A DNA stretch of 64,000 nucleotides. Source: Shinella sp. SUS2. Its GTDB lineage: Bacteria > Pseudomonadota > Alphaproteobacteria > Rhizobiales > Rhizobiaceae. Where the stretch lies: the NCBI RefSeq assembly GCF_001262505.1, contig NZ_KQ410724.1:1-64000 (forward strand), in the 5' to 3' direction. Shown one piece after another: positions 2,949 through 48,358 of this stretch. The position numbers were made by a program, and so were the translations under genes. The notes beneath the pieces were generated by a model, which was not told the origin of the DNA, did not search any database, and was given only the letters and a program-made list of their open reading frames with translations. Each line of letters starts with the position of its first letter. Position 1 is the stretch's first letter.

Positions 2949-3668
2949 TCAGAGAACCTGCAGGCGGTCCGGCCCCGCTCGTTCGCCGACGACGCGACCA
3001 TCGGTCAGCTCGATCGTCCGGTCAAAGAGATCGAGCGACCGGGGATCATGTGTCACAACCACGATCCCGGCTCCCCTCGTGTCGGCAATCTGACGGAAGA
3101 GTTCGATCACCTGACGCCCGCGAACACCGTCGAGCGCTGCGGTCGGCTCGTCCGCCAGGATGAGGGTGGGATCGTTGGCGAGAGCGCGGGCAATCGCCAC
3201 GCGTTGCTGTTCGCCGCCGGAAAGCCGCGATGGGCGATTGCCGATGCGATGTCCGAGACCGAGCCCTGCCAGCAGCCGCTCGGCGTGGCGGCGGGCATCG
3301 CGGGCAGGCACGTCATCGATTTCCATTGCCAGCGCCACATTTTCCGAAGCCGTCAGGAAGGGAATGAGGTTGGCCTTTTGAAACACGAAACCGATATTAC
3401 GTCGTCGGAAGTCGCGCAGCCTGTCGAGCTCTTCTCCTGCCTTCGAAACGAGGGCGCCGCGAATTCTCACCTCGCCTTCGGTTGGCGGCTCCAGCAGGCC
3501 GGCGATCAGAAGCAGCGTGCTTTTTCCCGATCCGCTCGGTCCGAGGATCGCAACCAGCTCGCCGGCATTGATATCCAGCGAGACCCCGTCGAGCGCCTTG
3601 ACGATGCTGTCGCCGCTGCGGTAATGCCGGGTGGCATCGCGCACCGACAGGATCGGCTCGGCCGTCAC
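2949..3668 (-). CDS. ABC exporter ATP-binding protein (MacB/LolD/DevA type)
   Basis: The 239-residue product is a single nucleotide-binding domain with Walker [10 protein letters not shown] at 43-51, Q-loop Gln97, signature LSGGEQQR at 149-156, Walker B with Glu174 in ADEPT, and the switch His in VVTHD. This is the class that powers FtsX-type permeases such as MacB, LolCDE and cyanobacterial DevBCA. The chosen start is the GTG at 3668, which overlaps the permease stop by GTGA, implying translational coupling. The open frame continues upstream but only as an overlap with the permease gene. Substrate is unknown; the neighbouring small secreted proteins are candidates. Confidence 0.88.
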
Positions 3669-4828
3669 GACAGCACCTCCTGCGCCCTGACTTTCAGCGC
3701 CCTCCAGATCCCGAGCAGGCTCGCAAAGGCGCAAACGGCTCCTACGGCGAGCGCAAGACCCGCGAAATCCCATGGATCGATGACAACCCTTCGCGGAAAG
3801 AACGGGAAAACCAGTTTCGACATCGCCAATCCGAGAACAAGCGCACCAGCGCCGATCAGGAAGGACTGCTGGGCGATCATCGCGACGATGACGCTGTTTC
3901 GCGCACCGATGAGCTTCAGCATGGCGATCTGATGAAGCTTTTCCATCGTCAGCATATAGATGATGAGGGAGATGACGATCGCCATCACCACCAGCAGGAC
4001 GCCGGTAAAAGCCAGAATCTGCAGTCTGAGGCGCCAGAGGCGCTGGTTCAGCAAAAGGTCCCGCTGGTCCGCACGCGACAGGATGTTGGCATCGCCCCAT
4101 GCAAGGACATCGGCTCGGACCCGATCCTCGTTCGCCCCCTTGTCGAGGCTGACGAGAACGGCGGCGATCTTGCTGTCCTGCGGCACGGAACTTTCGGAGG
4201 CATCCGCAGCTCCCGTCCTGCCCGCCGCGTTGCGCGCCAGCAAGACCTCTTCGCTGGTGCGCCGCTTTGCGATCGCCATCGCGTCGTTGACGGTAACGAA
4301 CATCAGTCCATCGCCGCTGGCGTCGACCATGCCGCGCGTCAGACCGACGATCAGGTAGTCATCCTGACCCAGGCGCACCCGGTCCTCCAGCGAGAGCCCG
4401 ATACTTTCGTCGGCGATCGCCTCGAAGTGCCCGGCAGTCAGATACCGTCCTCGCTGCAGCTCAACCCACTCTCCTCGATCCTTTGGAAAATCGAGGCCGG
4501 TGATGGAGGCGCGCAAATCACGTCCTTCGAAGCTGAATTGCTGACTGATCTGAACAAAGCGCCGGACCACAGATACGCCGGCGATACCCTCGACGCGCCG
4601 GTCCATGTTTGCTGAAACGGCAGAGCTTTCGGAGAAGGGCCCGGCCCGGCCCCCTTGGACCACCCAGAGATCCGCGCCGATCTTATCCACCACGAGAAGC
4701 GCATCTCCGACGATACCCCGGTAAAGACCGACCATTCCGGTCGAGGCCATGATCAGGAAGCCGACGCCTGCCGTCGTGAGCAGAAAGCGCAGGAAATTGT
4801 ATTTGACGTCCTTGAAGGCAAGATTCAT
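3665..4828 (-). CDS. ABC exporter permease, FtsX/MacB-like (DevC type)
   Basis: The 387-residue inner-membrane protein has one N-terminal membrane segment (about residues 12-38), a periplasmic domain of about 220 residues, and three C-terminal segments (about 270-295, 315-340, 350-378). This is the topology of MacB-type permeases, which work by coupling cytoplasmic ATP hydrolysis to periplasmic substrate release rather than carrying substrate through the membrane. The gene overlaps the adaptor gene by ATGA (4825-4828) and the ATPase gene by GTGA, so the three products are probably made in a fixed ratio. Confidence 0.86.
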   Translation of the reverse strand: MNLAFKDVKYNFLRFLLTTAGVGFLIMASTGMVGLYRGIVGDALLVVDKIGADLWVVQGGRAGPFSESSAVSANMDRRVEGIAGVSVVRRFVQISQQFSFEGRDLRASITGLDFPKDRGEWVELQRGRYLTAGHFEAIADESIGLSLEDRVRLGQDDYLIVGLTRGMVDASGDGLMFVTVNDAMAIAKRRTSEEVLLARNAAGRTGAADASESSVPQDSKIAAVLVSLDKGANEDRVRADVLAWGDANILSRADQRDLLLNQRLWRLRLQILAFTGVLLVVMAIVISLIIYMLTMEKLHQIAMLKLIGARNSVIVAMIAQQSFLIGAGALVLGLAMSKLVFPFFPRRVVIDPWDFAGLALAVGAVCAFASLLGIWRALKVRAQEVLS

Positions 4829-32014: not shown

Positions 32015-32980
32015 CTACGGCCGCGCCTTGATGGCGGGGCCGACCTCCAGGATGCGGTTGGTCCAGACATAGCCGGGGAAGGGCTCCGGCAGGTCTTCCA
32101 CCTGTTCGGTTGTATCGATGCCGACCGTACCGCCGCCGGAATAGGGGCCGATGAGGACCACATCGCTGCCGGCATCCTCCATGCGCGTCAGGAAGCGGTT
32201 CGGCCAGCCCCAGAGCAGGAACGCATAGTTGCTCGGTACCGGCACCAGCGTGTTTCGGCAGGCCTCCGGCACATAGCCGATCCAGCCTGTGCCGAGATAA
32301 CGCAGCAGGCAGCTCTTCACCGAGGTCTTTGTGTAACCCTTGAGGCCGGGTGTGGCGGCAAGCGCCGCATCCGTCGGCTCCGCGCCGCCGTAGATACCGA
32401 AGATCTTGTCCTTCCAGGCCGGATTGGCCGCCAGCAGCGCGGCAAACGCCACGCCTTCCTCCGCCCGCCGGCTCTTGAAGTTGATCAGCAGCTTGCCCGC
32501 CGGGTTGGCGGCGAAGATCTCTTCCAGCATCGGCATCTGCCCGACACCCTTGCCGCGGAACGGGTAGGTCTTGCCGCCATCGGGCGTATAGCCGTAGCCG
32601 ATGTCGAGCGTCTTCAGCGTGGCGCTGTCCGTCTCCTCAGTCACGCCCTTGCCGTCCGTCCGGCAGTCGAGCGTCCAGTCGTGGAAGACGGCGAACTTCT
32701 TGTCGGGCGTCAGGTGCACGTCGATCTCGACGACCTCGGCGCCCGCCGCAAAGGCTGCCTGCATGCCGGCGACCGTGTTTTCCAGGAAATCGTGTTTGGG
32801 CGGGTCGATGAGGCTTGCCGTGCAGGTGTCGTCGTCGACCGCCTCATGGCTGAAGGTCTGGTGGGCGCCGCGATGGGCCATCAGCTTCGTCGCGCCATCC
32901 GGCGTGCTCGCGATCAGCGAGCTGTTGAACGACCAGATCAGCAGGGCGAGGCCCAGCGTGAAGATCGGCGCGTTTCGCAT
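32015..32980 (-). CDS. periplasmic glycerophosphodiester phosphodiesterase
   Basis: The 321-residue product has a signal peptide (FTLGLALLIWSFNSSLIAS) and a GDPD TIM-barrel domain: MAHRGAHQ with the catalytic histidine, ENT, and EIDVHLTPDKKFAVFHDW with the metal-binding Glu-x-Asp and second His. It would hydrolyse glycerophosphodiesters released from membrane lipids to glycerol-3-phosphate and an alcohol. It is convergent with era, with a 4-base gap. It lies 69 bases downstream of the GGDEF-EAL gene on the same strand and could be read from its transcript. Confidence 0.88.
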   Translation of the reverse strand: MRNAPIFTLGLALLIWSFNSSLIASTPDGATKLMAHRGAHQTFSHEAVDDDTCTASLIDPPKHDFLENTVAGMQAAFAAGAEVVEIDVHLTPDKKFAVFHDWTLDCRTDGKGVTEETDSATLKTLDIGYGYTPDGGKTYPFRGKGVGQMPMLEEIFAANPAGKLLINFKSRRAEEGVAFAALLAANPAWKDKIFGIYGGAEPTDAALAATPGLKGYTKTSVKSCLLRYLGTGWIGYVPEACRNTLVPVPSNYAFLLWGWPNRFLTRMEDAGSDVVLIGPYSGGGTVGIDTTEQVEDLPEPFPGYVWTNRILEVGPAIKARP

Positions 32981-33049: not shown

Positions 33050-35413
33050 TCAGGCGCGGGCGCGGCGGTCGGGGCTCTGGGCGGCCTCGCGGGCCTTTTC
33101 GACAAGCCGCTGCATCGCCCAGATGCCGATCTCCTCGAGGGTGAGGGGGCGGCTGATCAGATAACCCTGATAGAGGTCGCAGCCGGCCGCGGCGAGCAGC
33201 GCCATCTTCTCGGTCGTGTCGACGCCTTCCGCGATCACCGACATGTCCTGTGCATGGCAAAGCGCGACGAGAGCCCGCAGCGTCGGCAGCGCCGCCGAAC
33301 GGGTGAGGCTCTCGACCAGCTCGCGGTCGAGCTTGATGGTCTCGGCCGGGTATTCGATGATCTGCTGCACGGACGTGTAGCCCGCGCCGAAATCGTCGAT
33401 GGAAATGCGGAAGCCGCGGGCGCGCAGGATCTCGATGTTGCGGCGGGACTGCTCGCCGAGCTTGACGGCGAAAGTCTCGGTCAGCTCGATCTCGATCAGG
33501 CGGGCATCGATGCCGTGCCGGTCGGCGCTGTCGCAGAAATGGTCGCTGATCGACTTCGTGTAGAGCTCGGCGGACGAGATGTTGATGCACAGGATCGTCT
33601 CGGTGCCGAACAGCTTGCGGATCTGGCCGTATTCGGCCATCGCCCGGTCGATCACCCACCAGTCGATCTTGCTGAAGAGGCCGGTCGTCTCGGCGATCGG
33701 GATGAATTCGTCGGGCGTCACGCGGCCAAGCACCGGCGAGGTCCAGCGCAACAGCGCCTCGCAACCCGTCACCTTGCCGTGGCCATCGACGATCGGCATG
33801 TAGACGAGGTAGAATTCGCGGTCCGGGTCGAGGACGCGCAACTCCTCTTCGATGCGGCGCTGGCGGTTGCGTTTTTCGTGCAGCGAGCGGGAATAGCGGG
33901 CCGAGCCGTTCTTGCCCTGGGATTTCGCCTGGTACATGGCGGCATCGGCATTGGCGACGAGTTCGGGCAGCGTGCGGGCATCCTCCGGATAGACGGCGAT
34001 GCCGATACTGGCGGTGACCGGATAGGCCTTGTCGAGCACCTCGAACCCCTCGGCAAAGAGGGCGAGGATCTTTTCGGAGATCTCCGTGATCGTGCCGCTG
34101 CCCGGCTGGCAGCGCAGCATGATGGCGAATTCGTCACCGGAAAGGCGGGCGAACAGGCCGTCCGGCAGGCCGCGCTCGGAAACGACGCAGGCGACGATGG
34201 TCGAGATGCGGTCGGCCAGCGTCTTCAGCAACTCGTCGCCGATCTTGTGGCCGTGCTTGTCGTTGACGAACTTGAAGTTGTCGACGTCGATGAAGAGCAG
34301 CGTGCAGCCGATATCCTCGGCCTCCGCCTCCTGCAGGATCTGCGTGGAGCGGATATTGAAATATTCGCGGTTCGAAATGCCCGTCAGCGTGTCCGTCCAC
34401 GAGGCGTTCTGCACGAGGTCGAAGGACTGCATGGAGTGGTCGTGCAGCCGCTTGACGTTGGCCGACAGGCGGCCGATCTCGCCGATCTCGTTCATTTCTG
34501 GCAGGGCGCTGCGGTTGCCGGTCATCACGTCGGTGAGCTGGCGGTCGAGCTTGGCGATCGGGTTGGTGATGTAGCGGCGCACCAGGCCGAGTACGAGGAC
34601 GATCGTGCACAGGCTGAGCGCAATGGCGCCGAGCGCGAGCAGCGATTTCAGCGTCGAAAGCCGGTTGTCGAGGAAGGTGGGTTCCGGCGTCAGCCGCGCA
34701 AAGAGCGAGGGGCTGAGTGTCGCGGTCGCGGAAAGCCCGCCCTGCGCCAGAAGCTGGTGCTGGCCGATTTCGATCGTCGTGCCATATTCCTTTTCCAGCG
34801 CCCGCTTCATGTCGAGGAAGAGTTTGGGCCGAACCGCGGTCTGCACCAGGATCGCGCCGTTCTTGGCGCTGGCGACCGGTCGGTTGAAGGTCAAGGGATC
34901 GATGAACTCCGAATGCACGATCAGCGGCTCGATGCCGGCCGTGTTGAGATAGCTCCAGGAGGAGAGCCGCGGGCTCTCGATCACCTGCCTTGCGTGCTGG
35001 ATCTGCTGCGGTGTGATCTCCGCGAACGGATCGTCGCTGTCCTCGAAGTAATAATCGACGGTCAGCGGCGGGCGGATGATCGCCACCGAGATGAAGCGCT
35101 TGCGGTCGTCGGAGAGCGAGGTGATGCTCTGCTGCAGGCGCACGCCGAGCGCGGTGTTGCGATAGGCGGCATCGGGCTCGTTGACGAAGAGGCGAACCGC
35201 GCCGCCCTCGACGAGCGAGTAGATGAAGCTGCGGTTCTGCGTCACCTCGTTCTGGAAGACGGCGGTGAGCAGGCCCATCTGCTGCCACAGGCGGGCGCGT
35301 TCCAGCGCGAGGATGGACGAGCTCTGCACGTAGTAGATCAGCGAGGCGGCGAGCACATAGCCTGCGAGCACGACCGGGAAAATGAGGGAAAGGGCGCGTT
35401 TACCGAGCGTCAC
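33050..35413 (-). CDS. membrane GGDEF-EAL protein (c-di-GMP turnover), MbaA-like layout
   Basis: The 787-residue inner-membrane protein has membrane segments at about 9-29 and 257-277 framing a periplasmic sensor of about 225 residues, a HAMP linker, a GGDEF domain (about 335-505) and an EAL domain (about 520-775). The diguanylate cyclase signature reads SGDEF (425-429), a changed first glycine that may weaken synthesis. The EAL domain looks intact: EALLRW at 552, then IDDFGAGYTS and IKLDRELV. It begins 14 bases inside the end of the PotD-like gene. That pairing resembles NspS-MbaA of Vibrio cholerae, where a periplasmic polyamine-binding protein sets the activity of such an enzyme. Confidence 0.9.
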   Translation of the reverse strand: MTLGKRALSLIFPVVLAGYVLAASLIYYVQSSSILALERARLWQQMGLLTAVFQNEVTQNRSFIYSLVEGGAVRLFVNEPDAAYRNTALGVRLQQSITSLSDDRKRFISVAIIRPPLTVDYYFEDSDDPFAEITPQQIQHARQVIESPRLSSWSYLNTAGIEPLIVHSEFIDPLTFNRPVASAKNGAILVQTAVRPKLFLDMKRALEKEYGTTIEIGQHQLLAQGGLSATATLSPSLFARLTPEPTFLDNRLSTLKSLLALGAIALSLCTIVLVLGLVRRYITNPIAKLDRQLTDVMTGNRSALPEMNEIGEIGRLSANVKRLHDHSMQSFDLVQNASWTDTLTGISNREYFNIRSTQILQEAEAEDIGCTLLFIDVDNFKFVNDKHGHKIGDELLKTLADRISTIVACVVSERGLPDGLFARLSGDEFAIMLRCQPGSGTITEISEKILALFAEGFEVLDKAYPVTASIGIAVYPEDARTLPELVANADAAMYQAKSQGKNGSARYSRSLHEKRNRQRRIEEELRVLDPDREFYLVYMPIVDGHGKVTGCEALLRWTSPVLGRVTPDEFIPIAETTGLFSKIDWWVIDRAMAEYGQIRKLFGTETILCINISSAELYTKSISDHFCDSADRHGIDARLIEIELTETFAVKLGEQSRRNIEILRARGFRISIDDFGAGYTSVQQIIEYPAETIKLDRELVESLTRSAALPTLRALVALCHAQDMSVIAEGVDTTEKMALLAAAGCDLYQGYLISRPLTLEEIGIWAMQRLVEKAREAAQSPDRRARA

Positions 35414-36449
35414 TGATCTGGGCCAGACTGCTGATGATGCGGCGGCGGGCCTGGACCGATTGCACGGTCAGTTCCTCCTGAAACTGGCTTTTGGCCAGGA
35501 TTTCCGGTGCGGCATAGATTTCGGGATTGGAGCGTATGTCTTCCGGAAGCAGCGCCAGTGCGGCGGTGCTTGCGGTGGGCATGTTGAGCTTGACGGCGTT
35601 GCGGGCGCCGTTCCTGGCGTTGCTGATATAGTCGATCAGCTTCAGCGCCAGGGCCTTGTTGTTCGAGCGTTCGCTGACGGAGACGCAGTCGAGCCAGGAA
35701 AGCGTGCCTTCCTTCGGCACGACGTAGCGCCAGAGGCCCGGTGAGGAGACCTTGTCGTTCAGCGTGTACTGGTCGCCGCTGTAACCGAGCGCCATGTAGA
35801 TGTTCGGCCCCTTGTCCGGGCTCTGCACCGAGGTGACGACATAGTCGTAGGTGAGCACATAGGGCGCCTGCGCCTTCATCAGCTCGTAGGCCGCCTTCAG
35901 CGTCTCGTTGTCATTGGCGTTGACCGACTTGCCGAGCAGGGCGAGCGGCGCGACGAAGGCTTCGGCGTGGTCGCCGTACATGGCGATATGGCCGCGTAGG
36001 CTTTCGGCCGGCTTCATCATGTCCGCCCAGGAGGTCGGCGGCGTCGTGATCTTGTCGGAGCGGTAGAGGATGCCCATCGTGCCCCACAGATAGGGCACGC
36101 CGTAGCCGCCGCAGCGGCCCGACCAGCTTTCCGCATAGTCCTTCAGCGATGGGACGTTGTCGGCACTCAGCGTGGCGATGACGCCGCGTTTGCCGTAGAG
36201 CCGTGCGCCGTTCTCATTGGTCACGACGACGTCGACATTGGCGTTCGGATCGGCAAGGATCTTGTCCCGCACGTCGCCGCTGTCATAGAAGGTCTGGCGC
36301 ACCTCGATGCCGGTTTCGGCGGTCCAGTCGGCAAGAATCTGCTCGTCGATATAGGCTTCCCAGATCAACAGGTTAAGCGTGGTCGCATGCGCCGGGCCCG
36401 TGGTGCCGAAGGCCGCCAGTGAGACTGCTGCAAGAAAAGCGCCGCGCAT
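35400..36449 (-). CDS. PotD-like periplasmic polyamine-binding protein (possible NspS-type sensor)
   Basis: From the ATG at 36449 the 349-residue product has a clean signal peptide (MRGAFLAAVSLAAFG, ...AHA). A TTG at 36494 would add 15 residues and is less likely. The mature sequence follows spermidine/putrescine-binding PotD proteins: LLIWEAYIDEQILADWTAETG, DVVVTN, GVPYLWGTMGILYRSDK and MALGYSGD. No permease or ATPase genes of a polyamine transporter lie beside it. Instead its 3' end overlaps a membrane GGDEF-EAL gene by 14 bases. It therefore looks like a ligand sensor rather than a transport protein; the ligand is inferred, not shown. Confidence 0.83.
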   Translation of the reverse strand: MRGAFLAAVSLAAFGTTGPAHATTLNLLIWEAYIDEQILADWTAETGIEVRQTFYDSGDVRDKILADPNANVDVVVTNENGARLYGKRGVIATLSADNVPSLKDYAESWSGRCGGYGVPYLWGTMGILYRSDKITTPPTSWADMMKPAESLRGHIAMYGDHAEAFVAPLALLGKSVNANDNETLKAAYELMKAQAPYVLTYDYVVTSVQSPDKGPNIYMALGYSGDQYTLNDKVSSPGLWRYVVPKEGTLSWLDCVSVSERSNNKALALKLIDYISNARNGARNAVKLNMPTASTAALALLPEDIRSNPEIYAAPEILAKSQFQEELTVQSVQARRRIISSLAQISDAR

Positions 36450-36678
36450 GCCGAAGGCCCCGTTGCCGTTACGTGCGGTGAGGATAGTCGGCAAGACTTT
36501 ATGAAGCGTTACAACCTCTAAGCCTGTATTCGCTGGTGTTCAACCGTGGCACAGTCCTGCCGCTTTTACCGGTCGTGATATATATTGTGGACGTGGCCGC
36601 GGGCTGCCGGGCCTGTGGTTGGCCTATAGCCGGCCGCGCACTATGGTCGCCGACCGCGCCAACCCAGAGGAATTCGAC

Positions 36679-38988: not shown

Positions 38989-39135
38989 GGCAAAGCCCTA
39001 GTTTTCCTAATGGCTGTCGGCAGAAATCGTCGTTTGTCTTGAATCGCCTCACCGCCCATAGTCGCGGTGTGGGCGGGCTCAAGCGGGCCGGGCGTTGCAA
39101 AGCGCGCCCGGTGTCCGGCAAACAGGAAACAAGAC

Positions 39136-40029
39136 ATGACGATGACGATTTCACGCCGCCAGGCCATGGCCGGCGCTCTCCTTGCCATTCCCGCGGTTTC
39201 CGCGCTGACGGCCGGCACCAGCCGCGCCGCCGGCGAGGATCTCGCGCAACGGCTTGCCGCGCTGGAGGCGCGTCACGGCGGGCGCATCGGCGTTGCCATA
39301 CATAATCTTTCGACGGGCGCGCGGCTCGGCCACAACACGGATGAACGCTTCCTGATGTGCAGCACCTTCAAGGCGCTGCTGGCGGGCCATATCCTCGCCC
39401 GGGTGGATCGGGGCGAAGAGACGCTGGACCGGCGCATCGTCGTGAAGAAGGCGGACCTCGTGGACTGGTCGCCGGTGGTGGAAACGCGTGTCGGCGGGAA
39501 GGGCATCTCGATCGCCGAACTCTGCGAGGCGACCATCACGTTCAGCGACAATGCCGCCGCCAACCTGCTGCTTGCCGCATCGGGCGGGCCGGAGGCCGTC
39601 ACGGCGTTCCTGCGCGGCCTTGGCGATGCGGTAACGCGGCTCGACCGCACGGAGCCGACGCTCAACTACCATGAGACGCCGGACGACGTGCGCGACACGA
39701 CGACACCGACCGCCATGGTGGAGACGCTGCGCAGGCTGGTTTTTGCCGACGTGCTGTCGGCGCGTTCGAAGGCGCAGCTTGCCGCCTGGCTGGTGATGAA
39801 CAAGACGGGCGACGCGCGGCTGCGCGCGGGTTTTCCGGCGGACTGGATAGCCGGCGACAAGACCGGCACCAACGGTGACAAGGCCGGCAATGCCAACGAC
39901 GTCGCCATCGCCTGGTCGCCGGACCGCGGCGCCATCATCGTTGCAGCCTTCTGCGAAATCCCCGGCATTTCCGGCGACGAGCGCAATGCCGTCATTGCCG
40001 AGATCGGGCGCATCGCGGCCGAGGTCTGA
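39136..40029 (+). CDS. class A beta-lactamase
   Basis: The 297-residue product has a signal peptide with a twin-arginine-like start (TISRRQAMAGALLAIPA). All class A motifs are present: STFK with nucleophile Ser76 and Lys79, SDN at 137-139, ELN-type ExxxN with Glu173 and Asn177, and KTG at 242-244. It hydrolyses beta-lactams in the periplasm. Cys75 precedes the nucleophile, but the position where carbapenemases of the KPC/SME type have the partner cysteine is Asn, so that disulfide is absent. No ampR-type regulator is adjacent. Spectrum cannot be read from sequence. Confidence 0.93.
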   Translation: MTMTISRRQAMAGALLAIPAVSALTAGTSRAAGEDLAQRLAALEARHGGRIGVAIHNLSTGARLGHNTDERFLMCSTFKALLAGHILARVDRGEETLDRRIVVKKADLVDWSPVVETRVGGKGISIAELCEATITFSDNAAANLLLAASGGPEAVTAFLRGLGDAVTRLDRTEPTLNYHETPDDVRDTTTPTAMVETLRRLVFADVLSARSKAQLAAWLVMNKTGDARLRAGFPADWIAGDKTGTNGDKAGNANDVAIAWSPDRGAIIVAAFCEIPGISGDERNAVIAEIGRIAAEV

Positions 40030-43708: not shown

Positions 43709-44680
43709 TCAATGGCCGTTACAGGTCGAAAGCACTTCCCAGTGCGCGTGCAGCGCTGCGAAATCGCCGCCGGCTTCGATGATCTCGACGATATGGCTGA
43801 ACCGGTCGCGGGCGCCCGTTTTTTCGCCGGCCAGCCGGAGGCGGGCCGTGCCGGCCGCAGGATCCCCGGTCACATCCGCAATTCCGTCGAGGCGGGTGGC
43901 GCGCAGGAGGGCGGCGGCGCGGCGCGTTTCGTTCTGCACGTTGATCGGTGTGGCACAGCCATAAGCGGTGGTCAGCGGGCTCTTTCCGGCAGCGACCGGC
44001 ATCCATGTCAGCGTGCCGTTTTCCATCACCAGCGGCGCCGCGTCGAAGGTGACCGGCATCCAGTCCTCTTCCGCGTCGGCGGAAAAATGCGCGACATGGA
44101 GCGTGCCGTCGTCGAGGAGGTCCGGGCCGTCGGCGCGGCTGCCGGACTGCCAGGTGCGGTTTGTGACGAACTTGTAGAGATGTCCGGATTCGCCGGCATC
44201 GCCGCAATAGACGACCACGCGGCCATCCCGGTTGACGAGGCAGGCGAGGGCGCCATGCCGCAAGCGGCCGAGGGCGGGCCGTTTTTTCGGGGCGGCGTCC
44301 GGATTCCGCGGATCGACCTCGACGACCCAGCCCGCAGGGGTGCCGGATCCCTCATCGAAGCAACGGGCGTCGCCATGAAAATCCGCCTCTGCCATCAGCC
44401 GCGTGCCCCAGGGGGTAAGGCAGCCGGCGGTGGCGATGCGCTGGCTTGAAGCCATGCGGAGCGCGACGGGGGCCAGGGGTTTTACCGGGGCCCCGCCGGC
44501 GGCCGGCGTCAAAGGCTGTCCGTCCGTGCGGGCGGCGGTGCATCGACCGAGAAGATTGCCGAGGCTGCGAACGATGGCATGCGCATAGCCGTCCCGGGGC
44601 TGCCGGCCCGCCTGCGTGGCGGTGGCATTGCGAAGGGTCTGGGTCATGGCGGGCTCCGGTTGCTCCTGGAAATAGGTCAT
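43709..44680 (-). CDS. short PhoX-like (DUF839) protein
   Basis: The 323-residue product resembles the C-terminal half of PhoX-type alkaline phosphatases (DUF839): LMAEADFHGD, GWVVEVDPRNPDAAPKKRPALGRLRHGA, GHLYKFVTNR and a late NVQNE segment. Full PhoX proteins exceed 550 residues, carry a twin-arginine signal and bind Ca and Fe with residues in the missing half. No signal peptide is seen here. The frame is intact, so it is either a specialised short family or a decayed gene. An internal ATG at 44647 is an alternative start. Confidence 0.7.
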   Translation of the reverse strand: MTYFQEQPEPAMTQTLRNATATQAGRQPRDGYAHAIVRSLGNLLGRCTAARTDGQPLTPAAGGAPVKPLAPVALRMASSQRIATAGCLTPWGTRLMAEADFHGDARCFDEGSGTPAGWVVEVDPRNPDAAPKKRPALGRLRHGALACLVNRDGRVVVYCGDAGESGHLYKFVTNRTWQSGSRADGPDLLDDGTLHVAHFSADAEEDWMPVTFDAAPLVMENGTLTWMPVAAGKSPLTTAYGCATPINVQNETRRAAALLRATRLDGIADVTGDPAAGTARLRLAGEKTGARDRFSHIVEIIEAGGDFAALHAHWEVLSTCNGH

Positions 44681-44808
44681 TGTGCCCGCCTTGCATGAAA
44701 ACCATGCGACAACCCGAAGAGAATACCGGCTTCAAACGTAACCCCGTTTAGTCTTTGGAAAAAACCGGGTAGTCTCCGCGCCCGGACAATGCCCGCCTTG
44801 GAGTCGCA

Positions 44809-47670
44809 ATGCTCGAAATCCTCTCCCTGGTCGCGATCGGCCTGGCGCTCTATACCCTCAATGCATCGCGAAACAGCGCGCAGAAACTCGGCGAGGAGGT
44901 GATGCGGCTGAAGCGCGAAGTCGAGGCGCTGAAGGCCGGAGATTTGACGGCGCCAGTGGAGACGGTGGCTGTGGAAGCGACCGAGGCCATCTCCGAAGAG
45001 GCGGCCGAGGAGCCGGTGCCGGCCGATTTCGCAAGCCCCTGGGCTGCGTCGCAGGCGGCGGGGATGGACGAGGCCGAGAAGGGCCGGGCGATCTTTGGCG
45101 GCACGCCCGCCGGTCCCGCCGAAACGGTTGCTGCGAGCGAGGGGCTGGACGAAGCCGTTGCGGCGGCCTCTGCCACTCCCGCGGCCGCGGCAAAGCCGAA
45201 GGAAAGCTTCGAAAGCCGCATCGGCGCGCGCTGGGCCGTCTGGGTGGGCGGCATCGCGCTCGCGCTCGGCGGCATCTTCATGGTCAAGTATTCCATCGAG
45301 GCAGGGCTGCTCAGCCCGGCGGTGCGGCTGTCGCTGGCCGCCGTCTTCGGCCTCGTGCTCATGGCCGTCGGCGAGTTCGTGCGCCGCCGCACGCTGCCGG
45401 TCATCGCGAATGCCTTCCAGAACGCGATGATCCCCGGCGTGCTGACCGCTGCCGGCGCCATAACACTGTTTGCCGTCACCTATGTTTCCTACGAGTTCTA
45501 CGGCTATTTCGGCCCGCTGACGGCCTTCGTGCTGCTCGCCGCCGTGGCCTTCGCGACGATCGGCCTGTCGCTCCTGCACGGGCAGGCGCTGGCCGGCCTC
45601 GGCCTGCTGGCCTCTCTCGTGACGCCTGCGCTGGTCGCGACCGAGGAGCCGAGTGCCTGGGGCCTTTTCGGTTTCCTCTCCGTCGCCTGGCTTGCCACCT
45701 TCGCCGCCGCGCGCATCCGTCGCTGGCTGGTCGTGCCGGCGCTGGCCAGTGCCGGCATGGCGCTCTGGGCGGTGCTCTATCTTTCGGAGGCGAGCACGGT
45801 CGAGGTCGTGCCGATGCTTCTCGCCCTGCTTGTGATGGCGCTTGGCCTGGGGCTGATCTGGCCGGGCCACATTACGGCGGACGACCTGCCGCCCGCAACG
45901 GGCGCCGCCGCCGCCGATCCGCTGGACCGCCTGCTTGCCCCGCCCGCGGTCGCCGTATCGCTGACCGGCGCGCTGGCCTTGACCTTCCCGGCGCTGATCC
46001 TCGCCAATGCCGTCCCGGCGCTCGCCCGGGCGGACTATGGCTTTGCGGCGATCGTGATGGCGCTTGCCCTGCTCGGCGCGCTGCGCGGCTGGGCGATCTA
46101 TCCCGCGCTCTTTTCCGCCATCACGGCCGTGGTCGGCGTCGGGGCGATGGTGATCCGGCCCGGCGGCCTGCTGTTCGACGATTTCTCCTCGCTGGCCCCG
46201 CCGATACTGGACAACGCCTCGGTGCTGCCGCCGCCAGCATCGTTGCCGGTACCGATGATCGCCGTCGTGCCGGTCAATCTGCTGCTGCTCCTTGCCGTGG
46301 CCTATGCGGCGGTCGGTCTTGCGGCGGTGCGCCTGCGCATGACGGGGTCCTCCGCCTTTTCCGCGCTCTGGAGCCTCATCGCTCCGGCCGTGCCCTTCGT
46401 TGTTGTCGCTCTGAACTTCCTCCATTTCGGCAACCTCTCCTTTGACCTCAAGCACGGTCTTCTCGCCGTGGCGCTCGGTCTCGCCTTCTTCGCTGCGGCA
46501 GAGGTCTTTTCGCGCGGACGGGCGGAGGAGGGCCTGTTCATTCCACAATGGACGCTCGTTGCCGGCGGCTTTGCTTTCCTCGTGCTGGCGCTGCACGCCA
46601 TGACGGACGGCCTTGCCACCACGCTCGGCATCGCGATCCTCGGCGCTGCCGCCGTCTTCGCGACGCGCCTTCGCCGCTGGCCGGTCCTGCCCTGGCTGAT
46701 GGCCGGGGCGGCGGCCGTGGTTGCCGGCCGCATCGGCTGGGAGCCGACCATCGTCGGCGCGGCCAACCTTTCGAAGACGCCGGTCTTCAACCAGCTGCTT
46801 GTCGGCTACGGCATTCCGGCTGCTCTCCTCGCGCTCTCGGCCTTCGAACTGCGCCGCTGGCCGGGCGAGAAAATCCGCAACCTGCTGCAGGCGCTGGCCA
46901 GCCTGTTCGTGCTGCTGACGGCGGCGATCCTCGTGCGCCACGGCATGAATGGCGGGGTGCTGGACAGCTCCGTGCCGACGCTCGGCGAGCAGTCGATCTA
47001 CACGCTGCTGGTCATCGGCGCCGCGGGTATCCTGATGTCGCTCGACCTGAAATCGCCGAGCCCGGTCTTCCGCTACGGTTCCATGGTGGTCGGCGGGCTC
47101 TCGGTCCTGTCCATCCTCAGCGCCCATTTCGTTGGCCTCAACCCCTATTTCACCGGCGAACTGCTCGGTAAATGGCCGTTCCTGGATCTGCTTTTCGTCG
47201 GCTATCTCCTGCCTGGCATCGCCTATGGCGGGCTTGCCCTCTATGCGCGCGGCCGGCGGCCGATGCCCTATGTGATCATGCTGGCGCTGACCGGCGTGGC
47301 GCTCGCCTTCGCCTGGGTCACGCTCAGCGTGCGTCGCTACTGGCATGGCGAGGGCATTGCCGACTGGAAGGGGTTCCTCCAGCCGGAGACCTACACCTAT
47401 TCGGTCATCTGGCTGCTGCTCGGCGTTCTGCTGCTGGTGGTCGGCTCGAAGTTCGATTCCAAGAGCATCCGCCTTGCCTCCGCCGGTCTCGTGCTGATCG
47501 CGGTGGTCAAGGTCTTCCTGATCGACATGGCCAATCTCGAAGGCATCCTCAGGGCGCTCTCCTTCATCGGGCTCGGCGCGGTGCTGATCGGTATCGGGCT
47601 GTTCTACCAGAAGATCCTGTCGGGAAAGTCCGGGACCGGCGAAAAGGCGGAATTGAACGCCGAGGCGTGA
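44809..47670 (+). CDS. DUF2339 polytopic membrane protein
   Basis: The 953-residue protein opens with a membrane segment and a coiled coil (LGEEVMRLKREVEALKAG), then an Ala/Glu-rich linker, then about 25 membrane segments from residue 140 to the end (first module ARWAVWVGGIALALGGIFMVKYSIEAGLLSP). This is the DUF2339 family, whose function is not known. The gene is monocistronic with an upstream region of about 130 bases. The very long antisense open frame here is an artefact of its biased codon use. Confidence 0.9.
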   Translation: MLEILSLVAIGLALYTLNASRNSAQKLGEEVMRLKREVEALKAGDLTAPVETVAVEATEAISEEAAEEPVPADFASPWAASQAAGMDEAEKGRAIFGGTPAGPAETVAASEGLDEAVAAASATPAAAAKPKESFESRIGARWAVWVGGIALALGGIFMVKYSIEAGLLSPAVRLSLAAVFGLVLMAVGEFVRRRTLPVIANAFQNAMIPGVLTAAGAITLFAVTYVSYEFYGYFGPLTAFVLLAAVAFATIGLSLLHGQALAGLGLLASLVTPALVATEEPSAWGLFGFLSVAWLATFAAARIRRWLVVPALASAGMALWAVLYLSEASTVEVVPMLLALLVMALGLGLIWPGHITADDLPPATGAAAADPLDRLLAPPAVAVSLTGALALTFPALILANAVPALARADYGFAAIVMALALLGALRGWAIYPALFSAITAVVGVGAMVIRPGGLLFDDFSSLAPPILDNASVLPPPASLPVPMIAVVPVNLLLLLAVAYAAVGLAAVRLRMTGSSAFSALWSLIAPAVPFVVVALNFLHFGNLSFDLKHGLLAVALGLAFFAAAEVFSRGRAEEGLFIPQWTLVAGGFAFLVLALHAMTDGLATTLGIAILGAAAVFATRLRRWPVLPWLMAGAAAVVAGRIGWEPTIVGAANLSKTPVFNQLLVGYGIPAALLALSAFELRRWPGEKIRNLLQALASLFVLLTAAILVRHGMNGGVLDSSVPTLGEQSIYTLLVIGAAGILMSLDLKSPSPVFRYGSMVVGGLSVLSILSAHFVGLNPYFTGELLGKWPFLDLLFVGYLLPGIAYGGLALYARGRRPMPYVIMLALTGVALAFAWVTLSVRRYWHGEGIADWKGFLQPETYTYSVIWLLLGVLLLVVGSKFDSKSIRLASAGLVLIAVVKVFLIDMANLEGILRALSFIGLGAVLIGIGLFYQKILSGKSGTGEKAELNAEA

Positions 47671-47704
47671 CAGGATAGTCAGGGCAACCAATGATGGATT
47701 GCCC

Positions 47705-48358
47705 ATGACCTTCGCCTGTCTCGCCGCCGCCTTCTCGCCCCTCGGGGCCCTTGCCGAACGCCTGCTGCCGCAGGCCTTCTCTGCCGATGACGGCTCGCAC
47801 GATGCCGCGCATCTCATCCGTGTGTGGAAGAGCGCGCGCCGCATCCAGGCGGAGGAGGGCGGTGACATACGGTTGCTGGCCGCCGCCGTGCTGCTGCATG
47901 ATTGCGTGGCGGTGGAAAAGAACTCGCCGCTGCGCGCCGAAGCGTCACGCCTTGCAGCCGAAAAGGCGGCCGACCTGCTTGCCGCCGAAGGCTGGAGCGA
48001 AGCGGACGTGGCCTCCGTCGCCCATGCCATCCTGACGCACAGTTTCTCCGCCAATCTCGCTCCCAAGACACTGGAGGCGAAGATCCTGCAGGACGCCGAC
48101 CGGCTCGACGCGATCGGTATGATCGGTGCTGCGCGCTGCTTCTACATTGCCGGCCGCATGGGCAGCGGCCTCTACGATCCGCTGGACCCGCTCGGCGAAA
48201 ACCGCCCGCTCGACGACAAGGCCTTCGCCATCGACCATTTCGAGGTCAAGCTCTTCAAACTGGCTGACGGGTTCCAGACGGCGGCGGGTGCGCGCATGGC
48301 CGGCGAACGGACGGAGCGCCTGCGGGCGATCCGCGCCATGCTGCTGGATGAAATCTGA
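47705..48358 (+). CDS. HD-domain phosphohydrolase (YedJ-like)
   Basis: The 217-residue product contains an HD metal-dependent phosphohydrolase domain: SHDAAHLIRVWKSA (first His), LLAAAVLLHDCV (HD pair) and KILQDADRLDAIG (final Asp). YedJ-type proteins are uncharacterised phosphohydrolases, probably acting on nucleotides. The ATG at 47705 is chosen over a TTG two codons upstream. It starts 34 bases after the DUF2339 stop and may be read with it. Confidence 0.85.
   Translation: MTFACLAAAFSPLGALAERLLPQAFSADDGSHDAAHLIRVWKSARRIQAEEGGDIRLLAAAVLLHDCVAVEKNSPLRAEASRLAAEKAADLLAAEGWSEADVASVAHAILTHSFSANLAPKTLEAKILQDADRLDAIGMIGAARCFYIAGRMGSGLYDPLDPLGENRPLDDKAFAIDHFEVKLFKLADGFQTAAGARMAGERTERLRAIRAMLLDEI

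Follow-up and report, generated by a model that had tools for sequence, protein, structure and literature searches.

The NspS-MbaA sensor is thought to set whether cells stick or swim. In Vibrio cholerae, neither domain of MbaA can be spared, and it is the ligand that shifts the balance between them (PMC8079147, PMC8967002). The pair of Sinorhizobium meliloti, smc00991/smc00992, was studied by mutation in 2023 (PMC9993111), and the nspS mutant showed effects on biofilm, exopolysaccharide, and motility; the insertion in nspS probably also silences mbaA. In S. meliloti 1021, less biofilm formed with putrescine and with spermine, and a reciprocal polyamine pair was not found. Its phylogeny of 222 genomes placed Shinella among the smaller clades, and a "13 bp" overlap of nspS and mbaA was noted for a few Shinella isolates. 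The paper seems to count one nucleotide fewer than we do (13 versus 14 in Shinella, 3 versus 4 in S. meliloti). In 2020, genes labeled Gdpd, Pd, Nsps ("norspermidine sensor"), and Era were drawn around BKC/GPC-like beta-lactamase genes of Shinella (PMC7674036), where, in the figure-legend passage concerned, Nsps is an annotation only; the legend refers to the records of S. granuli and S. kummerowiae that correspond to our loci L012 and L016. A literature search on Shinella and NspS returned only these two papers (PMC9993111 and PMC7674036), and one on polyamines, c-di-GMP, solute-binding proteins, and GGDEF in rhizobia from 2020 on returned PMC9993111 alone.

Here we analyzed a 64-kb stretch of Shinella sp. 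SUS2 DNA (the window), in which a putative polyamine-binding protein gene overlaps a GGDEF-EAL gene (Table 1). An earlier note, made from the sequence of the window, had read the two genes as an alphaproteobacterial counterpart of NspS-MbaA. The relatedness to S. meliloti, the strict linkage of the two genes, the placement of the binding protein in an NspS clade, and a mostly kept pocket all bear this out, and we are highly confident that the pair is an NspS-MbaA polyamine-to-c-di-GMP receptor. As a finding about alphaproteobacteria, however, it is not new: both the receptor type and its occurrence in Shinella are in print, and the Shinella pair is a further copy of what was described earlier in V. 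cholerae and S. meliloti.

Table 1. Features of the nspS-mbaA locus in the window
Feature	Position	Strand	Remarks
NspS-type periplasmic binding protein (putative polyamine-binding)	35400..36449	-	ATG start, 349 aa
Overlap, nspS stop / mbaA start	35400..35413	-	14 nt
MbaA-type membrane receptor: periplasmic sensor between two putative TM segments, HAMP-like region, SGDEF, EAL	33050..35413	-	787 aa, GTG start
MbaA periplasmic sensor region, roughly residues 22-258	34640..35350	-	dCache-like in medium-confidence model
Glycerophosphodiester phosphodiesterase, optional neighbor	32015..32980	-	69 nt downstream of mbaA

Comparison with S. meliloti was made through a locus (L104) with the gene order MFS transporter gene, nspS, mbaA, purD. 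Since the order MFS transporter gene-nspS-mbaA agrees with the published one, in which the gene directly preceding nspS is the MFS transporter gene fsr (PMC12095868), L104 very probably represents the locus that was studied, here from a strain other than 1021. The window proteins are 55.4% (NspS, over 361 aligned residues) and 57.7% (MbaA, over 784) identical to those of L104, which places them, as measured against L104, above the minimum values (30% identity and 60% coverage, relative to the S. meliloti proteins) that defined pair members in PMC9993111. Membership also called for nspS directly upstream of mbaA, overlapping it or within 20 bp, and this is the arrangement in the window. The two loci share their gene order with an overlap, an MbaA of 787 residues carrying SGDEF and EAL (as described for S. 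meliloti in PMC9993111), and a place in the same Rhizobiaceae group of our trees. They differ in the length of the overlap (4 nt in S. meliloti versus 14 nt), in their neighbors (the MFS gene and purD versus tex and era), and at two modeled pocket positions.

By analogy with the work in V. cholerae and S. meliloti, the Shinella pair would respond to polyamines as follows. NspS would be exported and bind external polyamine in a PotD-like cleft; it would then, in a ligand-dependent manner, dock on the periplasmic portion of MbaA and thereby tip the receptor from c-di-GMP breakdown by the EAL domain to synthesis by the SGDEF domain; and this shift would favor attachment over motility. Ligand binding, docking, the direction of the switch, and the phenotype are all carried over from those two species, and since the S. 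meliloti data are not a simple copy of those from V. cholerae, both switch direction and ligand may differ from the Vibrio case.

Sequence features of the receptor agree with such an output. Pfam matches identify GGDEF (1.1e-36) and EAL (4.9e-60) domains, with SGDEF at residue 425 and EAL within GCEALLRW at residue 550, so that the SGDEF and intact EAL motif described in the earlier note are borne out by both Pfam and the motif alignment. The EAL-domain motifs TET (TE in variants), DDFG, and K are kept in all 57 aligned MbaA rows; at the EAL position, the eight commonest forms, which together cover 56 of these rows, all read EAL, EVL, or ETL, with EAL in the window. By eye, no RxxD precedes SGDEF in the window protein, as is likewise the case in the S. 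meliloti and V. cholerae proteins (PMC9993111). MbaA might instead work as a phosphodiesterase only, with a regulatory SGDEF and with NspS merely relieving breakdown. The non-canonical SGDEF, the intact EAL site of the window protein, and the published in vitro behavior of the V. cholerae cytoplasmic domain, a phosphodiesterase and not a cyclase, would suit such an enzyme. However, SGDEF is kept in 56 of the 57 rows, the window among them (the remaining row has AGDEF), and in V. cholerae SGDEF is reported to be required for the response, with in vivo evidence of synthesis. We consider a phosphodiesterase-only MbaA unlikely.

The N-terminal sensor of MbaA had no match to any Pfam family, and a PDB sequence search with a profile of this region gave two weak matches, both in the HAMP part (E 0.32 and 0.65). 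Its predicted structure has a mean pLDDT of 67. The transmembrane segments, read by eye, have counterparts in helices 3-29 and 245-279 of this medium-confidence model. Foldseek query TM values were at most 0.47 among the best 50 rows, and structural matches to sensor domains taken to be of the dCache type reached Z 9.7, among them the polyamine chemoreceptor McpU at Z 9.4 and LuxQ at Z 8.3, values that are middling.

The binding protein can be read from a TTG (35400-36494, 364 aa), but the ATG at 36449 is the likelier start; from there the protein has an apparent N-terminal signal peptide, as read by eye. Its best Pfam family is SBP_bac_8 (1.1e-30), and in the PDB it is most similar to putrescine- and spermidine-binding proteins. 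These matches, with the open reading frame where the earlier note had put it, uphold the description of a PotD-like protein. Meanwhile, it scores only 98.6 bits against the curated PotD equivalog and 91.8 bits against that of PotF, far under the respective cut-offs of 582 and 636. Among named homologues, the nearest come from Shinella yambaruensis and S. granuli (91% identity). A structure predicted for NspS from 11 close sequences was unusable (mean pLDDT 43).

A relative of PotD and PotF could also serve a distant Pot-type ABC importer, its overlap with a GGDEF-EAL gene being incidental. NspS is a true relative of these proteins, and the genome holds several Pot-type transporter loci. Besides NspS, 15 other matches were found in this genome; seven of these PotD/F-like paralogues (L002 to L008) were examined, and genes for a Pot-type ATPase or permease lie within 1.5 kb of six of them, while one (L004) has none in that range. 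The nspS locus, by contrast, has no transporter genes alongside. A search of the whole window for E. coli PotA, B, C, G, H, and I found no Pot-type transporter genes beside nspS-mbaA, in agreement with the earlier note; the sole match, roughly 29 kb distant at 2952-4358, was an ATPase that fits DevA, MacB, and LolD best, though under the cut-off of each family. Nor were Pot-type genes found in 14 related loci (L011 to L022, L104, and L106), so homologues of NspS do not always sit with PotABC-type genes, the pattern that, according to the earlier note, would argue for transport. Furthermore, a maximum-likelihood tree from a quick run set 35 NspS rows apart from E. coli PotD and PotF and seven paralogues from the same genome with SH-aLRT 100, where the paralogues, 7 of the 15, entered as matched regions and not as full proteins. 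In both the NspS and the MbaA tree, the window sequence lies among other Shinella, inside a Rhizobiaceae group that includes S. meliloti; the deep order of these trees is unsure, given several long end branches and a long-branch warning. With NspS outside the branch of PotD, PotF, and its own paralogues, and with the two genes always found together in the sampled genomes of the family, a role in distant import appears very improbable.

We asked how widely the pair is conserved, as the earlier note had proposed, using the first 330 residues of MbaA as the query against 297 sampled Rhizobiaceae genomes. Matches were found in 35 genomes, 33 of them strong; the two weak ones (E 3e-4 and 6e-4) were left out of the counted set. 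The NspS query at E 1e-60 recovered the identical 33 genomes, in 13 of 109 genera, which confirms a Vibrio-type polyamine receptor as a strict gene pair in that part of the sampled Rhizobiaceae. The two genes are adjacent in all 33: nspS lies directly upstream of mbaA, on the same strand and overlapping it, in 30 of the 30 loci read, among them that of the window, and in the other three genomes (G023, G088, and G231) coordinates place the pair adjacent on the same strand. Outside the Rhizobiaceae, the NspS-MbaA system is rare. In a sample of the class, 18 of 385 genomes matched the MbaA query, 17 of them only from position 223 on, and the window's own genome alone gave a full-length match. In a sample of the order, at a stricter 1e-10, two of 297 genomes matched, the window's own and one from another family. 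In a sample of the phylum, 53 of 398 genomes matched; 41 of these did so only from about position 186 on, the membrane/HAMP side, and 12 reached well into the sensor, two of which start only from about position 108. These 12 comprise the window's own genome, one more from the Rhizobiaceae, and ten from three other families. One of these three families clusters with V. campbellii in the tree and is probably the Vibrionaceae.

A recount reproduced the 14-base overlap given in the earlier note, and the overlap may couple translation of nspS and mbaA. Across 56 MbaA loci, the overlap is 14 nt in 27, 4 nt in 21, and 17 nt in 2, counts that are partly non-independent (L028 is the window itself, and L029/L013, L030/L014, and L034/L021 score identically and probably represent one genome per pair). 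Shinella lacus (L017, near 7083) has an overlap of 4 nt, versus 14 nt in other Shinella loci. The remaining loci comprise one with a 242-nt gap (L062) and five with no NspS, and MbaA can thus occur without an overlapping NspS. In the latter five, nspS was not found upstream of mbaA, within the roughly 1.2 to 1.5 kb read in Vibrio-like L066 to L069 or the 5 kb read in V. campbellii (L105); the binding protein has possibly been lost there. By eye, the open reading frame upstream of mbaA in L066 to L069 resembles a pheA-type gene.

The eight modeled norspermidine contacts of V. cholerae NspS listed in PMC9993111 were mapped through a Vibrio-like relative (L064), in which all eight letters agree at a constant offset of 13. 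The window protein has W45, D74, N93, L136, Y238, D241, W267, and D269 at these positions. Six are thus identical and two are changed (D90 to N93 and F131 to L136). All eight are present in the L104 protein, as they are in S. meliloti 1021 (PMC9993111). Such pocket letters tell NspS from transport proteins weakly: E. coli PotD keeps 3 of the 8 contacts and the transport-type paralogue L004 keeps 5. All NspS rows carry a tyrosine at the Y233 position, and the nine other rows all lack one. The window protein is identical to E. coli PotD at 7 of 13 PotD pocket positions.

The changed positions bear on which amine is bound. At the D90 position, every Shinella row has N and most other Rhizobiaceae rows have G, with D kept in S. 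meliloti and three further rows, as it is in the Vibrio-like rows; at the F131 position, most rows have L and some Shinella have F. It is a reasonable possibility, though not the one we favor, that within the same architecture the main ligand is not norspermidine but a rhizobial polyamine, for instance putrescine or homospermidine, or else another amine. This is a refinement nested in the NspS-MbaA reading, and the other six modeled contacts are identical, while N at the D90 position also occurs in the gammaproteobacterium-like L061 and in paralogue L004, which speaks against reading much into it. We think it rather unlikely that Rhizobiaceae NspS have split into ligand classes, with each lineage reading a different polyamine (e.g., homospermidine or putrescine) through the same MbaA output; if they had, that polyamine would act as a self/non-self or host cue.

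Whether the genes around the pair belong to the system was judged from 12 other Shinella loci and Rhizobium alarense (L021). The glycerophosphodiesterase, which the earlier note had thought possibly involved, is present in just 4 of the 12 Shinella loci (L011, L012, L016, and L017), and no match at E 1e-10 was found in the other eight (L013, L014, L015, L018, L019, L020, L022, and L106) or in R. alarense. It was therefore rejected as a component. tex and era, meanwhile, flank the pair in all 13 loci. The window also encodes, at 39067-40029 (+), a class A beta-lactamase scoring 602.8 bits, above the curated BKC/GPC carbapenemase cut-off of 575, with a homologue in 13 of the 13 related loci (12 Shinella and R. 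alarense); Shinella is the published origin of BKC-1/GPC-1 (PMC7674036). Two mechanically called open reading frames, at 44677-48066 (-; 1,129 aa) and 43709-44680 (-; 323 aa), had no NCBIfam match at E 1e-5.

Altogether, the pair represents no new kind of system. Its analysis flags two pocket positions at which ligand choice may have changed, and may be useful to work on polyamine signaling among bacteria of roots and soil. Compared with the V. cholerae system (PMC8079147, PMC8967002), the window pair has the same architecture, six of the eight modeled contacts, and SGDEF. V. cholerae MbaA has EVL (PMC9993111), whereas the window protein has EAL, and the overlap is 17 nt in two Vibrio-like loci versus 14 nt in the window. 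Vibrio or Vibrio-like relatives are 29 to 33% identical to the window proteins, a comparison that stands in for the V. cholerae proteins themselves. A further likeness is to LuxP-LuxQ, in which, according to PDB titles, a periplasmic binding protein is complexed with the periplasmic domain of its receptor. The MbaA sensor model matches LuxQ at Z 8.3 over 177 residues with an rmsd of 6.2, a match that many of the other sensor domains listed equal or exceed. LuxP-LuxQ of Vibrio likewise pairs a binding protein with a membrane receptor, and differs from NspS-MbaA in both its output enzyme and its ligand.
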